Assembly (NCBI GenBank): GCA_035696245.1
Contig: DASRQW010000238.1
Span: 1-34,753 of the forward strand
DNA from: Longimicrobiaceae bacterium
Lineage (GTDB): Bacteria; Gemmatimonadota; Gemmatimonadetes; Longimicrobiales; Longimicrobiaceae
Direction of reading: 5' to 3'
DNA: 34,753 nucleotides
The translations under genes were made by a program, and so were the position numbers. The notes beneath the pieces were generated by a model, which saw only the letters and a program-made list of their open reading frames with translations, was not told where the DNA came from and did no database searches. Below, in pieces: positions 28,520 through 34,753 of the stretch (its first letter is position 1; each line of letters begins with the position of its first letter).

Positions 28520-29026
28520 GGGACCTCGTGGCGGCGGGAAGCTTGCGCCATCTCGCAATCCCCCGGCCACGGGCCTGTACCGAGCGTTCTTCATCGACCG
28601 ACCGAAAGATGCGTCGCCGCGGCCTCGCCCTGTCGCGTGGACGCGCGGGCTACGGCGGCGCGAAGCCCTGTCGTGGACTGCTTCTGGAGATGTCTACTCG
28701 GCGAGCGGACGGAGTGATCGAGAGGTGGTCAAGCCCGCCCACAAGATCAGGACGATATCGGCGGCTGCGCACCTACCGTGATTTCCTTCATCCTCTGATC
28801 GCACTACGCGCTCGGCGACTTCGGCGGTGCGATGGACGGAAAGAAGCGTGCGGCATGGCTGATCGTCTACCGTCATACCAGCGTGTTCTCGGCAATGGGA
28901 AGACGCCTGGAGAGCGCGGGAGCGTGGCAGGCGCGCAACACTTCCGAACACGCGGAAGTACATGGGACACAATACGTTCCGCTGCCTCGGAAACAGTTGC
29001 GGAGAAGGCCTTTCGTCGTTAACGTA
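28520..29026. other. Divergent gene-free stretch
   Basis: No gene is supported, although a plus-strand frame is open from 28832. It separates the GT4 gene (minus) from the first TolB-like gene (plus), so both promoters must be here; only partial matches were found (TTGACC on the minus strand without a paired -10). Confidence 0.3.
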
Positions 29027-30508
29027 ATGCGCGGTCCCCGCCCCATCTCGCCCTCATTCGAAGAGCGGTCCCACTTGATCACTGACGCCCGCCCCAGCCG
29101 GGGCTTGCTGCGCCTGGCGCTGCCCATGGCCGCGCTCGCGCTTTTTGCCGCCTGCTCCGACGCGGGCACGCTGCCGTCCGCCCCCGGCACGCCGGGCCAG
29201 CCGCCTGTGTCCGTGCCGGCATCGCCCTCGTTCGCCGTCCTGGAGTGCACCGCGAGCGTGGCCGCCCGCATGGTCCGCTGCGGCGCGCCGGGCACCGCTG
29301 CCGGCGCCGCGCTCGACATCACGCACACCATCGGCGGTCAGGGACAGAACGTGCTCCTCGCCTCCAGCGGCGTGGCGTACGACTCGGTGGCCGAGGTGTT
29401 CAGCGCCAACGTGACCGTGCAGAACCTGCTGGTGAACCGCCTGGGCACGCCCGACGGCACCACCGTCACGGGCATCAAGGTGTTCTTCCACAGCTCGCCC
29501 ACCGCCACGTCGGGCAGCGGCGTCATCTCGGTGGCGAACGCGGACGGCACGGGCACCTTCACCGGCGGCGGGCAGCCGTACTTCGACTATCCCGAGATCC
29601 TGGCGTACCAGGCCGTGTCGCAGGCGCACCAGTGGCGCTTCAACGTGCCCAAGACGGTGGGCACCTTCGGGTTCCGCGTGCTGCTGCAGACCAAGGCGCT
29701 GCCCGTGGTGGTGTTCGACCGCGTGACCGGCGGCAACCGCGACATCTGGCGCGTGGCGCTGGACGGCAGCGACCTGGTGCGCATCACCAGCAACGTGGCC
29801 GACGACCAGAACCCCACCGTGGCGCAGGGCCTGGTGGTGTTCACCAGCTTCCGCGACACGGCGGCGGACCTGTACCGCATCCCCCTCACCGGCGGCGCCG
29901 AGACGCGGCTCACGCAGCAGCACGTGGACCTGCTGGACGCGGCGTACTCGTCCAACGGGCTCCGGCTGGCGTACACCAACGACGTGAGCGGCGTCTCGCG
30001 CCTGTACACGTCCAAGGCGGACGGCACGGGCGGCGCCCCGGCCACCACCGGCTCGGGGCAGATCGAGGCGGGGCCCACCTGGAAGCCGCGCGCCGACACG
30101 TCGTCCGCGCACCTGGACTCGATCGCCTTCGTCTCCACGCTCACGGGCGGGTCCGACATCTACATCGCCACGCCGGGCGGAGCGGCCACGCTGCTGGTGG
30201 GCGGCCCCAACGCCGAGGTGGAGCCCGCGTGGAGCCCAGACGGCACGCAGGTGGCCTTCGTCTCGGACCGCACGGGCGACACCGAGATCTTCACCGTGAA
30301 CGTGTCCACCGGCGTGGTCACGCGCCTCACCAACCGCGCGGGCACCGACAACGGCCCCGCCTGGCTGGCCGACGGGCGCCTGGTGTACACCGCCTGGGTG
30401 GGCTCCACGCCGCACCTGGAGTGGCTGGACCCGGCCGCGCCGGCCACCACGCACGTGATCCCCACGGGCACGGGCGCGGCGCAGCGGGCGTCGGTGGTCC
30501 AGTTCTGA
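29027..30508 (+). CDS. TolB-like beta-propeller lipoprotein (first)
   Basis: A lipoprotein of ~493 residues with lipobox LFAAC. After a Pro/Ser-rich linker comes a ~170-residue N-terminal beta domain with paired Cys (VLECTASVAARMVRCG), followed by a TolB/PD40-type propeller with repeats of the type SPDGTQVAFVSDRTGDTEIFTV. It ends in a conserved LDPAAPATTHVIPTGTG tail. No peptidase domain follows the propeller. ATG 29027 is the first in-frame start near the signal peptide but lacks a Shine-Dalgarno; TTG 29075 would give a more normal signal peptide. TolB-type propellers are periplasmic binding platforms. It is a paralogue of 32688-33836. Confidence 0.83.
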   Translation: MRGPRPISPSFEERSHLITDARPSRGLLRLALPMAALALFAACSDAGTLPSAPGTPGQPPVSVPASPSFAVLECTASVAARMVRCGAPGTAAGAALDITHTIGGQGQNVLLASSGVAYDSVAEVFSANVTVQNLLVNRLGTPDGTTVTGIKVFFHSSPTATSGSGVISVANADGTGTFTGGGQPYFDYPEILAYQAVSQAHQWRFNVPKTVGTFGFRVLLQTKALPVVVFDRVTGGNRDIWRVALDGSDLVRITSNVADDQNPTVAQGLVVFTSFRDTAADLYRIPLTGGAETRLTQQHVDLLDAAYSSNGLRLAYTNDVSGVSRLYTSKADGTGGAPATTGSGQIEAGPTWKPRADTSSAHLDSIAFVSTLTGGSDIYIATPGGAATLLVGGPNAEVEPAWSPDGTQVAFVSDRTGDTEIFTVNVSTGVVTRLTNRAGTDNGPAWLADGRLVYTAWVGSTPHLEWLDPAAPATTHVIPTGTGAAQRASVVQF

Positions 30509-30730: not shown

Positions 30731-31075
30731 CTTCAGCTTTATGGGGGTACGGCGGAACGGCGTCTTCCGGGTCCTCCCATTGCGCCGGGCTCGTACGGCG
30801 CTGACCTTGTCCGCGCATCCATCCGCCGCACGGACGCACCCGTCCGGAATCCCATCTCCCGTCCAGCCCCGCATCCCACCTGACACGCGCCCCACATCCA
30901 CCTCCGCGACGGACGCACGAGCGCGCCGCATCGCGGCAGCGCGTCGTTCGCCACAGCGGAGCCGGCCCGCTGGTCGCCCTCCGCTTTCGGACCGCGGCGT
31001 GACGGGTTCGGCCGATGCACGACGGTGCCGTCCGGCGGCCGTCGATCTCCACCTCAAGGTGAAACGAAGAACCGA

Positions 31076-32320
31076 ATGATGACCAGGCGAACGGCCGTGC
31101 GACTCACCCTGGCCGTGCTGGCCGCGGCGCTCCCCCTGGCCGCCACGGCGTGCGACGGGAGCGGCACCGGTGCGGACAGCGCGCGCGACGTGACCATCGG
31201 CGGCGTGTTCTCGCTCACCGGCAACTGGGCCACGCTGGGCGTCACCAGCAAGGCCGCCATGGAGCTGGCGGTCGAGGACGTGAACGCCTACGCGGCGGGG
31301 CGCGGCATCCACTTCGTGGCGCGGGTGGAGGACACGAAGCTCGACCCCGCGACGGCGCTGGCGAAGGTCCAGGCGCTGCACGGCGCGGGCGTGCAGGTGG
31401 TGGTGGGGCCGCAGTCCAGCGCGGAGCTCGCCGCAATCAAGCCGTACGTGGACGCGAACGCCATGCTGGTGGTGAGCCAGTCCAGCACGGCGGGCAGCCT
31501 CGCGGTAGCGGGCGACGGCATCTTCCGCTTCACGCCGTCGGACAGCCTGGAAGGCGTGGCGGTCTCGGCGCTGATGTGGGACGACGGGATCCGCGCCGTG
31601 GTGCCCATCTGGCGCGCCGACGCGGGCAACCAGGGGCTGCACACGGCCACGGCGGCGCGCTTCGCGTCGGCCGGCGGCACCGTCTCCACGGGCGTCGAGT
31701 ACGCCGCGACGGCGACGGCGTTCGCGACGCCGGTGGCCTCGCTCTCCGCCCAGGTGCACCAGGCGCTCGCGACCCATCCTGCGGGGCAGGTGGGCGTGTA
31801 CTTGGCCGGCTTCGACGAGGTGGCGGACGTGTTCGCGCTCGCCGCGGCCGACCCGGAGCTGTCGTCGGTGCGCTGGTACGGCAGCGACGGCGTGGCGCTC
31901 AGCGCGGCCGTCCTCGCCCGCCCCGCCGCCGTGGCGTTCTCCGAGCGGGTGGGCTTCCCCAACCCCGTGTTCGGCCTGGATCCCACCGCGCAGGACCGCT
32001 GGAAGCCGGTGGCCGATCGCATCCGCGCGCGGGCCGGGCAGGAGCCCGACGCGTTCGCGCTGGGCGTGTACGACGCGGTGTGGGTGGCGGCGATGGCGTA
32101 CCTGGCCTCGCCCGCGCACCCGAGCGCGGCGGACCTGAAGACGCGTTTCGTGGCGACCGCGGGCTCGTACTACGGCGTGACCGGCTGGACGGCGCTGAAC
32201 GCCGCGGGCGACCGCAAGTATGCCGACTTCGACTTCTGGGGCATCCGGGCATCCGGCTCCACGCACGCCTGGACCCGCGTCGCCTCGTACGACACCAAGC
32301 TGGGCCTGCTCAGCCGCTGA
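31076..32320 (+). CDS. Orphan type-1 substrate-binding lipoprotein (Leu/Ile/Val-binding-like)
   Basis: A 414-residue lipoprotein (lipobox LAATAC, Cys26) of the periplasmic binding protein type 1 fold. It starts with IGGVFSLTGNWATLG, followed by the helix AMELAVEDVNAYAAGRG, the VVVGPQSSAELAAIKPYVD and VVSQSSTAGSLA strands, and a C-terminal lobe with DAVWVAAMAYLASP, all typical of branched-chain amino acid and amide-binding proteins. The ligand is unknown. No permease or ATPase is encoded nearby, so it either serves a distant transporter or acts as a sensor. Two adjacent ATG codons (31076, 31079) compete; the ribosome site is weak. It lies between two paralogous propeller genes. Confidence 0.88.
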   Translation: MMTRRTAVRLTLAVLAAALPLAATACDGSGTGADSARDVTIGGVFSLTGNWATLGVTSKAAMELAVEDVNAYAAGRGIHFVARVEDTKLDPATALAKVQALHGAGVQVVVGPQSSAELAAIKPYVDANAMLVVSQSSTAGSLAVAGDGIFRFTPSDSLEGVAVSALMWDDGIRAVVPIWRADAGNQGLHTATAARFASAGGTVSTGVEYAATATAFATPVASLSAQVHQALATHPAGQVGVYLAGFDEVADVFALAAADPELSSVRWYGSDGVALSAAVLARPAAVAFSERVGFPNPVFGLDPTAQDRWKPVADRIRARAGQEPDAFALGVYDAVWVAAMAYLASPAHPSAADLKTRFVATAGSYYGVTGWTALNAAGDRKYADFDFWGIRASGSTHAWTRVASYDTKLGLLSR

Positions 32321-32687: not shown

Positions 32688-33836
32688 ATGAGCCTCAGCC
32701 GCACCCTGCCCCGCGCCGCCTTCCACGCCCGTGCGGCGCTCGTTGCCGCGGCGCTCGCCGTGCTCGCGGCCTGCAACGGCGGCGGCGGCACCGGCAGCGG
32801 GCCCGTGGTGGCGGTCGCCGCGGCCGGACGCCTGGAGCGCGGCGCGACCGTGACGCTCTCCGCCACGCGCGACGGCGTCGCGATCCCCCCCGCCGAGGTG
32901 ACCTGGTCCGCCACCCCGGCCGACGCGGTCACGCTCACGGCAGACGGCCACGCCACGTTCCTGCGCGCCGGGAACGTCACCATCTCCGCCAGCGCGAGCG
33001 GCGACGCGGGGCACGCCGACTTCACTGTCGCCGTGCCGCCCACCGTGGTCTTCGACCGCGTGGTGAGCGGCAACCGCGACATCTGGAGCGTGTCGCTGGA
33101 CGGCGGCGAGCTCACGCGCATCACCACCGACCCGGGCGACGACCAGGACCCCAGCGCGGCGCACGGGCTGGTCGCGTTCACCAGCTTCCGCGGCGGCTCG
33201 GCAGACATCTTCACCGTGCCGCTCACCGGCGGCGCGAACACGCAGCTGACCTCGGCGGCGTCGTTCGAGACGTCGCCCTCGCTCGCTCGGGACGGGACCA
33301 AGATCGCGTACACCAGCGACGTGACCGGCCTGTCGCGCGTGTGGGTGATGTCCTCCACCGGCAGCGGCGCGACGGCGGCCACGGGCAACTTCGGCCAGGC
33401 GGGAAGCATCGAGGCAGGGCCGTCGTGGAACCCCGGGGGCACCGGTATCGCATTCGTCTCAACCGCGAGCGGCGGCGCGCAGCTCTACACGGCGTCCGTC
33501 CCCGGCGGCCCGCCCGCGCAGCTCACCGGCACGACGAGCACCGCCAGCGTGGAGCCCGCGTACAGCCCGGACGGCACCCGCGTGGCCTTCACCTCGGACC
33601 GCGACGGCGACACCGAGATCTACCTGGTGACCGTCGCCACCGGCGCGGTGACGCGCGTCACCAACCGCCCGGGCGCCGACGCGCAGCCCGCGTGGCTGCC
33701 CGACGGGCGGCTGGTGTACACGGTGTTCACCGGCGGCACGCCCTCGCTGCGCTGGCTGGACCCCGCCGCGCCGGCCGACGTGCACAACATCCCCACCGGC
33801 ACGGGCGACGCGCAGCGCCCGTCCGGCGTACTCTGA
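32688..33836 (+). CDS. TolB-like beta-propeller lipoprotein (second), linked to the RiPP genes
   Basis: A 382-residue lipoprotein with lipobox VLAAC (Cys29). Behind the Gly/Ser linker is one bacterial Ig-like domain (~35-115, VTLSATRDGVAIPPAEVTWSA), then a propeller with repeats of the type SPDGTRVAFTSDRDGDTEIY and a tail LDPAAPADVHNIPTGTG. The propeller is clearly paralogous with that of 29027-30508, but the N-terminal domain differs. No hydrolase domain follows. ATG 32688 has GGA just upstream and begins the signal peptide; in-frame ATG 32649 is possible. The stop is only 12 nt before the RRE gene, so it may be co-transcribed with the lasso-type genes. Confidence 0.85.
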   Translation: MSLSRTLPRAAFHARAALVAAALAVLAACNGGGGTGSGPVVAVAAAGRLERGATVTLSATRDGVAIPPAEVTWSATPADAVTLTADGHATFLRAGNVTISASASGDAGHADFTVAVPPTVVFDRVVSGNRDIWSVSLDGGELTRITTDPGDDQDPSAAHGLVAFTSFRGGSADIFTVPLTGGANTQLTSAASFETSPSLARDGTKIAYTSDVTGLSRVWVMSSTGSGATAATGNFGQAGSIEAGPSWNPGGTGIAFVSTASGGAQLYTASVPGGPPAQLTGTTSTASVEPAYSPDGTRVAFTSDRDGDTEIYLVTVATGAVTRVTNRPGADAQPAWLPDGRLVYTVFTGGTPSLRWLDPAAPADVHNIPTGTGDAQRPSGVL

Positions 33837-33848
33837 TCGCGAGGCACC

Positions 33849-34136
33849 ATGCCCGATGGATACCAGGTCCCCGAAGACGTGCTGGCCGCCCACCTGGCGG
33901 GCGAGGCGGTGCTGCTGGACATGGACACCAAGCAGTACTTCCGCCTGAACGCCACCGCGGCGCACGTGTGGAAGCAGCTGGAGCGCGGCCTGGACCGCCC
34001 GGCGCTGCTGGCCGACCTGTGCGCCAACTTCGAGGTGGACGAGGCGACCGCCGGCGCCGAGCTGGACCGGCTGCTGGCCGAGCTCGCCGCGCACGGCCTG
34101 GTGCGCCCCGCCCCGCCGGAGGGCGGCGCGGCGTGA
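33849..34136 (+). CDS. PqqD-like RRE protein (lasso peptide B1 type)
   Basis: A 95-residue protein that is a stand-alone RiPP recognition element. The pattern GEAVLLDMDTKQYFRLNATAAHVW followed by a helix with L..LC.NFEVDEATAGAELDRLLAEL and a final GLV matches the PqqD/lasso B1 family. B1 proteins bind the leader of a precursor peptide and hand it to the B2 protease. ATG 33849 has GAGG 4 nt upstream. Its stop overlaps the next start (GTGA), so RRE and protease are made together. The precursor peptide was not found in the window. Confidence 0.9.
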   Translation: MPDGYQVPEDVLAAHLAGEAVLLDMDTKQYFRLNATAAHVWKQLERGLDRPALLADLCANFEVDEATAGAELDRLLAELAAHGLVRPAPPEGGAA

Positions 34137-34540
34137 GGGCCACGCCGGGCGCGGTGGCATCCGGGATCTGGGCCGCGGCCCGGGTCCCGTTCCAGCTTCG
34201 GGGCCGCGCGCTCGACGCGCTGATGGCCGCGCCCGAGCCCGCCGCCACGCCGCGCCCGGTCCCGCGCGGGGCCGTGGGCGCCGCGAACCGCATGGTCGCG
34301 GCGCTGGCGCGCGTGCCCGGCTCGCCCTGGCGGGACACCTGCCTGTACCGCAGCATCGCCGAGTGCCTGGTGCTGCGGCGCTACGGGGTTCCCGCCTTCG
34401 TGCGCATCGGCGTGCGCAACGAGAACCCGCCGCACGGGCGCATCATGGCGCACGCCTGGGTCGTCCGCGCGGGCGACGACGGGGCCCCGCCCGAGGCCAC
34501 GCACAACGAGCTGCTCCACTCGCTCCTGGTGCGCGGTTGA
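34133..34540 (+). CDS. Lasso peptide biosynthesis B2-type cysteine protease
   Basis: A 135-residue transglutaminase-like protease of the lasso B2 family, which cuts the leader off the precursor. The catalytic Cys lies in DTCLYRSIAECLVLRRYG, the partner His in IMAHAWVV, with the IGVRNEN strand between them, all in the expected order. The start is GTG 34133, overlapping the RRE stop by 4 nt; the family's usual N-terminal helical part is present. The stop overlaps a TTG start of the next frame (TTGA). The lasso cyclase (asparagine-synthetase type) is not in the window and should lie to the right. Confidence 0.88.
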   Translation: MRATPGAVASGIWAAARVPFQLRGRALDALMAAPEPAATPRPVPRGAVGAANRMVAALARVPGSPWRDTCLYRSIAECLVLRRYGVPAFVRIGVRNENPPHGRIMAHAWVVRAGDDGAPPEATHNELLHSLLVRG

Positions 34541-34753
34541 CGGCTCCCGCCCTCCCCGCTGCGGCCGAGGTGACCGCCGGCTCGCTGCGCCTGCTGCAAG
34601 ACGGCTCGCTCTCCGCACACTGGGAGGCGGGCCTGCACCCGTTCATCGCCCGCTGGCTCCCCCTCCTCCCGCCGGACGAAGCGGGCACGACGGCAGATGG
34701 CGCCTCGGCCATCCGCGTCGTCCACGCATCCTCCCCCGCGCCCGCCGCGCCTT
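34537..34753 (+). CDS. Partial coupled ORF downstream of B2, unidentified
   Basis: An open frame of 72 codons from TTG 34537 (overlapping the B2 stop as TTGA) to the window edge. It contains LRLLQDGSLSAHWEAGLHPFIARWLPLLPP. Composition looks coding, and it lacks the MxAIAGI-type start of asparagine-synthetase cyclases. In some lasso clusters a HPr-kinase-like protein follows here, but 72 residues are not enough to assign it. Confidence 0.5.
   Translation, partial: MTAPALPAAAEVTAGSLRLLQDGSLSAHWEAGLHPFIARWLPLLPPDEAGTTADGASAIRVVHASSPAPAAP

Follow-up and report, generated by a model that had tools for sequence, protein, structure and literature searches.

Three described RiPP systems combine an RRE with a kinase and come closest to the gene set reported here. 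The LPP system of Bacillota (Popov et al. 2026, PMC13381572) comprises an RRE, an HprK-like kinase, an NTP transferase and a SpI-like (SipW-type) peptidase, and has no cyclase. The LPP leader follows the consensus YxxPxVLxHQxIxFETxxS. Polyphosphate is carried on Ser3 of the core, which lies at index 18 from the leader Tyr when computed from the published numbering, and the kinase LppK did not phosphorylate the S3T variant. The same source states that LPP and the paeninodins are restricted to Bacillota, that an NTP transferase is found in both sets, and that WxxP leaders occur in paeninodins (PMC13381572). In the Bsf system, BsfK phosphorylates Ser3 of the B1/B2 substrate with the help of B1, the RRE, and accepts Thr in its place; the leader is cut off by B2 (PMC10368454). 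A Longimicrobium genome is reported to hold one lassopeptide cluster called by antiSMASH, as well as RiPPs without known relatives (PMC7291104), a statement that neither names nor excludes the system below. Searches of the open-licence PMC literature gave no earlier description of the cassette.

The window analysed here is an entire contig of 34,753 nucleotides (G000:C238:1-34753), and the genes of the cassette occupy its end. The first gene encodes a TolB-like beta-propeller lipoprotein whose N-terminal region is Ig-like (32688..33836, + strand). It is followed by a discrete RRE of the PqqD/B1 type (33849..34136, +), a B2-type transglutaminase-fold cysteine leader peptidase (34133..34540, +) and the 5' part of an HprK-like kinase gene with a TTG start (34537..34753, +), which is truncated at the contig end. 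The first-pass annotation, made from the letters of the DNA, had joined the propeller to a lasso-type gene set, and its geometry is correct: the propeller ends 12 nt before the RRE begins, and overlaps of 4 nt join the RRE to B2 (34133-34136) and B2 to the next ORF (34537-34540). The lasso-type label holds for the RRE and B2. It does not hold for the third gene, which is a kinase, and a cyclase is absent from the cassettes examined. A second, paralogous propeller gene (29015..30508, +) shares 70% DNA identity with the first and encodes an additional N-terminal domain of about 150 aa. Between the two propellers lies the gene of an ABC-type periplasmic binding lipoprotein (31070-32320; PF01094, PF13458).

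The RRE matches PF05402 (PqqD, E 8e-17) and, by profile A2, TbiB1 of the PDB (E 5e-19). Its predicted fold matches that of leader-bound TbiB1 (5v1v, Foldseek E 5.8e-7). It is the single RRE of the cassette kind in the genome, which has one other, weaker, match at C440. A search of genome contigs with the RRE gave only seven distant loci in other groups (Clostridia, Thermoanaerobaculales, Acidobacteriota and others). The protease scores 57.9 bits against the NCBIfam model lasso_biosyn_B2 (NF033537, cut-off 33), matches PF13471 at E 6.6e-16, and has both the Cys of TCLYRS and the His of AHAW. In a tree of 36 B2 rows, 35 of them different (L019 equals L180; L176 was left out, having no B2 there), a branch supported at 100/99 separates the cassette proteases from the lasso-linked and unlabelled B2s. 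At the end of another contig, the genome of the window has a further RRE and B2 of lasso type (L055, G000:C440), and this B2 clusters with the lasso B2s.

The ORF at the contig end comprises the first 217 bases of its gene and resembles the kinase of locus L049 (57% over 30 aa). Because a matching kinase C-terminus, detected by profile A1, opens another contig of the same genome (G000:C518:2-187), the assembly probably divided one gene between C238 and C518. The kinase family matches HprK of known structure at E 1e-5; the match is confined to the P-loop region and lies below family cut-offs. The invariant columns of the kinase profile take in the GDxHxGK of the P-loop and an SDD motif, which align with HprK (1jb1). 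A PF14907 nucleotidyltransferase adjoins the kinase in 3/3 such ORFs scanned, all from f4 loci, and no NTP transferase was seen on reading the ORFs of the family-f1 loci. In two loci the kinase is followed by a different radical-SAM protein (L048:6110-7651 and L049:11263-12648, 91% identical to each other; NF045502, 163.9 bits).

The gene run is conserved in relatives. A search with the B2 protein in 61 related genomes gave ten B2 genes of the cassette type in the window's family, f1 (the window, G005, G006, G010, G013, G014, G015, G016, G018 and G020). All ten have RRE-B2-kinase, and in seven the propeller lies immediately upstream of the RRE; L048, L049 and L054 are without an adjoining propeller. 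Seven further loci were examined in families f3, f4 and f5 of the same class. The RRE directly follows the propeller in L176, L181 and L185. L178 has propeller-B2-kinase, and the RRE of that genome lies on another contig together with a precursor and a radical-SAM gene (L179). A propeller is nearby without adjoining the cassette in L177 and L180, and there is none on the short contig L184. B2 is present in 16 of the 17 cassettes. The run in G260 reads precursor-rSAM-propeller-RRE-kinase with no B2, and since the only B2 match of that genome lies in a lasso-type cluster on contig C282, which has another RRE and a PF00733 match, the two clusters may share a protease. The cassette arrangement is found again in further genera and further families; the run is therefore beyond chance.

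The substrates are encoded elsewhere. The window has no precursor by motif scan or by profile A4 (best E 0.078), which extends the earlier remark that none lies beside the cassette. The first precursors were seen as short frames before the RRE (G010) and before radical-SAM genes (other genomes) with a common leader; profile A3 was built from seven of them, and the search of family f1 gave many more, several per genome. The W-type set comprises 38 peptides, 29 from family f1 and 9 from other families. Its pattern fixed W, P, L8, P9 and L11, so that independent evidence resides in the remaining positions. L185 was kept despite its LPPL; 10 of the 39 family-f1 candidates (F-type, Y-type, other-type or broken) and L188 of the other families were left out. 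The leader consensus is WxxPx[V/I/L]xxLPRLTxLTLx[TS]G. W, P and T occupy indices 0, 3 and 15 in 38/38, W and P being selection criteria, V is at index 5 in 30/38, and Ser or Thr is at index 18 in 36/38, with Thr in 30/38. The core has 15-25 residues, with 40% Gly from index 19. The leader has the form [Y/W]xxPx[L/V] that defines lasso leaders, and T15 agrees with their Thr(-2).

Other peptides were noted besides the W-type set. Six carry an FxxP leader and a core about 5 to 15 residues long (L114:13894-14007, L125:6217-6360, L128:6611-6751, L129:5592-5741, L130:5659-5799 and L110:5932-6135); a second kinase paralogue adjoins 5/6 of them, and Ig-like and S74/YadA-head surface proteins adjoin 6/6. 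One orphan W-type precursor has, a short way upstream, the gene of an MNIO enzyme (L119:5096-6025; PF05114, E 1.4e-66) and a partner ORF. L123 and L124 contain small Cys-bearing peptides near orphan precursors, with the common start MxKxxLxxxxLxVESF...GTVxGH, and these are perhaps another peptide family.

The genome of the window has at least four strong precursors that are unlinked to each other (C488, C137, C496 and C77), and a single radical-SAM gene of the precursor-linked kind, directly behind the precursor on C488. Precursors (profile A4) and the kinase (profile A1) were counted in 395 genomes of the phylum, with up to 17 candidates per genome scored for the precursor and 5 for the kinase. 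The precursor was found in 18 genomes, the kinase in 16 and both in 14 (hypergeometric p 1.8e-20, kinship between genomes ignored). Outside family f1, 6 genomes are shared of 8 and 8 (p ~2e-10, likewise ignoring kinship and assuming 15 family-f1 members among the 395). Four genomes have a precursor only: in G000 the kinase is divided between contigs, and the assemblies of G017, G359 and G379 are 80-86% complete. Those with a kinase only are G281, where the contig is 3.3 kb long, and G098, which is also without an RRE of the cassette kind. Precursor copy numbers and this co-occurrence together support the conclusion that a single cassette acts in trans on the products of several precursor genes at unlinked sites.

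We propose, with a probability of roughly 0.7, that the cassette is the maturation set of a RiPP family that is akin to lasso peptides and lacks a cyclase, and the products of which would be linear modified peptides. The RRE would bind the precursor leader through WxxPxV, as suggested by its homology to TbiB1 and by the published [Y/W]xxP rule. The kinase would phosphorylate a Ser or Thr of the precursor, most likely the near-invariant residue at index 18 from Trp, by analogy with LppK and BsfK. Where a radical-SAM/SPASM-like enzyme is encoded next to the precursor, it may modify the core. B2 would then remove the leader after LTL, if the rule for lasso B2 proteins applies, releasing a linear, Gly-rich peptide of 15-25 residues that keeps its conserved C-terminal Ser/Thr-hydrophobic end. 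A single cassette would act in this way on several precursors encoded at unlinked sites. Some observations point against parts of the scheme. Thr dominates index 18 here, while LppK rejected S3T. The cassette is also not uniform: G260 is without B2, three f1 loci are without the propeller and most precursors are without a radical-SAM gene.

The system shares with LPP, as far as its source describes it, the discrete lasso-like RRE, the HprK-like kinase, the lack of a cyclase and the [Y/W]xxP leader. In the three f4 loci, PF14907 may be the counterpart of the NTP transferase. P3, V5 (30/38), T15 and S/T18 are common to both leaders. The differences are that B2 replaces the SpI-like peptidase, that radical-SAM and propeller lipoprotein genes are added and that most precursors are dispersed. 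The leader here has W0 and LPRLTxLTL, with LPRL at 8-11, where LPP has HQxIxFET, and does not match the LPP consensus (PMC13381572). Because of this difference in leader consensus the system was not filed as LPP, but as far as its sequence tells it would work like LPP. The Bsf set is similar in B1, B2 and a low-identity HprK-like kinase, which in Bsf phosphorylates core residue 3, and differs in being described as a lasso peptide cluster, with no mention of radical-SAM or propeller genes in the passages that treat it (PMC10368454). The paeninodin-type lasso clusters resemble the cassette in the split B1/B2 and the kinase (PMC5067487), and in WxxP leaders (PMC13381572). They differ by the cyclase (C) and transporter (D) genes of the paeninodin cluster (PMC5067487) and by phosphorylation of paeninodin at its C-terminal Ser (PMC10368454).

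The role of the propeller is conjectural. The protein has PD40 repeats (PF07676, E 8.5e-28) and scores 140.9 bits with TIGR02800, and the best matches of its predicted structure are TolB structures. Among the structure matches are solved complexes in which TolB binds short colicin peptides. Lasso clusters with an Atxe2-type isopeptidase similarly have a propeller domain adjoining the B genes, but there it is fused to a hydrolase, whereas here it is a stand-alone lipoprotein, closest to TolB. The first pass was right that the hydrolase is absent and that the protein is a lipoprotein: only PD40 is found, the lipobox-like motif is LAAC, and the lasso isopeptidase model reaches 58.4 bits against a cut-off of 400. 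Descent from an isopeptidase was rejected on the same grounds, the protein being closest to TolB and without a hydrolase. The propeller gene is probably co-transcribed with RRE-B2-kinase, and we speculate that, outside the cytoplasm, the lipoprotein serves to bind the mature peptide or to present it. The alternative is that the gene is linked to the cassette by chance or by a shared promoter and has no peptide role, a possibility compatible with the maturation scheme. Genomes of this sort commonly contain PD40 propellers, and the three family-f1 loci without one fit this alternative. We consider it unlikely, since the propeller lies directly upstream of the RRE in 10/17 cassettes, other families of the class included, and inside the fetched piece in 13/17; the joining of the propeller to the gene set, as first annotated, is thereby upheld. 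The paralogue at 29015-30508 is probably a companion of the cassette as well, judged by gene order: locus L046 of G005 has propeller-propeller-RRE-B2-kinase, as in the window's pair of paralogues. Its case is weaker, with the gene at 31070-32320 intervening. The latter has no counterpart at the equivalent place in G005. The N-terminal domain of about 150 aa of the paralogue (around CTASVAARMVRC) is found in lipoproteins near many precursors and has matches in 21/55 searched pieces.

A second alternative is that the product is a cofactor of the PQQ or mycofactocin kind, in which the RRE and the radical-SAM enzyme rework the C-terminal (S/T)TV(F/I) and the remainder of the peptide is cut away. 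The precursor is directly followed by a radical-SAM gene in 14/38 cases by motif (L116 is a fifteenth by similarity), and the best NCBIfam match of that enzyme is the mycofactocin maturase. The C-terminus, Ser/Thr followed by hydrophobic residues, is conserved in 35/38 by a permissive pattern, and in 27/29 family-f1 precursors under an earlier one. The maturase match, however, is 63.9 bits against a cut-off of 265, and that to PqqE 43.7 bits against 381, so that the enzyme is below both cofactor-family cut-offs. Moreover, 24/38 precursors have no directly following radical-SAM gene by motif, and several divergent precursors per genome are ill-suited to one cofactor. To our knowledge, B2 and the kinase are not components of the PQQ or mycofactocin pathways. 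A cofactor is accordingly improbable.

The proposed maturation set for linear peptides also has to be separated from a lasso system proper. The asparagine-synthetase cyclase, PF00733, was searched in 21 genomes of the window's family. It was found on none of the ten family-f1 cassette contigs, which range from 9.6 kb (G010:C118) to 622 kb (G006:C3), some being short. A PF00733 match lies within 2.6 kb of 11 of the 12 remaining B2 genes in the family, and the twelfth gene, on G000:C440, is 280 bases from a contig end. No full-length PF00733 match lies near the cassette in 7-8 genomes of other families. G045 is a single contig, and its one full-length match is 2.9 Mb from the cassette. G072 (99% complete, 5 contigs) carries precursor, radical-SAM, propeller, RRE, B2 and kinase genes and one B2 match in all; it has no cyclase-like gene, with one partial PF00733 match of 34 bits genome-wide. 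A lasso cluster with its other genes beyond the contig end was rejected, as relatives with longer flanks are without the cyclase. By its gene content the cassette is thus unlikely to be a lasso cluster; of the "unusual lasso or lasso-like cluster" first suggested, lasso-like stands, and lasso is disfavoured by precursors that are dispersed and mostly without a usable ring acid. A true lasso system whose cyclase is supplied in trans by another cluster of the genome would account for the lasso-type RRE, B2 and leader, for the additional cyclase-bearing lasso-type clusters of several genomes and for Asp or Glu at core positions 7-9 in 10/38 precursors by the lasso cleavage rule (16/38 if the core starts two residues later), but it is improbable, as 17/38 cores have no Asp or Glu at all, G072 has the whole set without a cyclase-like gene and the cassette B2s form a separate branch.

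As a cyclase-free maturation set, the cassette would extend kinase-bearing RiPPs without a cyclase beyond Bacillota, to a second phylum in which the protease is a different one. Genome mining keyed to B2 or the RRE would presumably mislabel it as a lasso cluster, and dispersed precursors served by a single cassette would escape cluster-based searches. The cassette also offers a test of whether the RRE, kinase and B2 are an older core and whether lasso cyclases were added or lost. A wider reading, which we regard as tentative and rather doubtful, is that short Gly-rich phosphopeptides, often modified by a radical-SAM enzyme, are encoded throughout the genome, matured by one trans-acting cassette and displayed or captured at the cell surface by dedicated TolB-like propeller lipoproteins. 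If true, this would be a Gram-negative system of peptide display or signalling, in which a single processing plant serves scattered and varied substrates.
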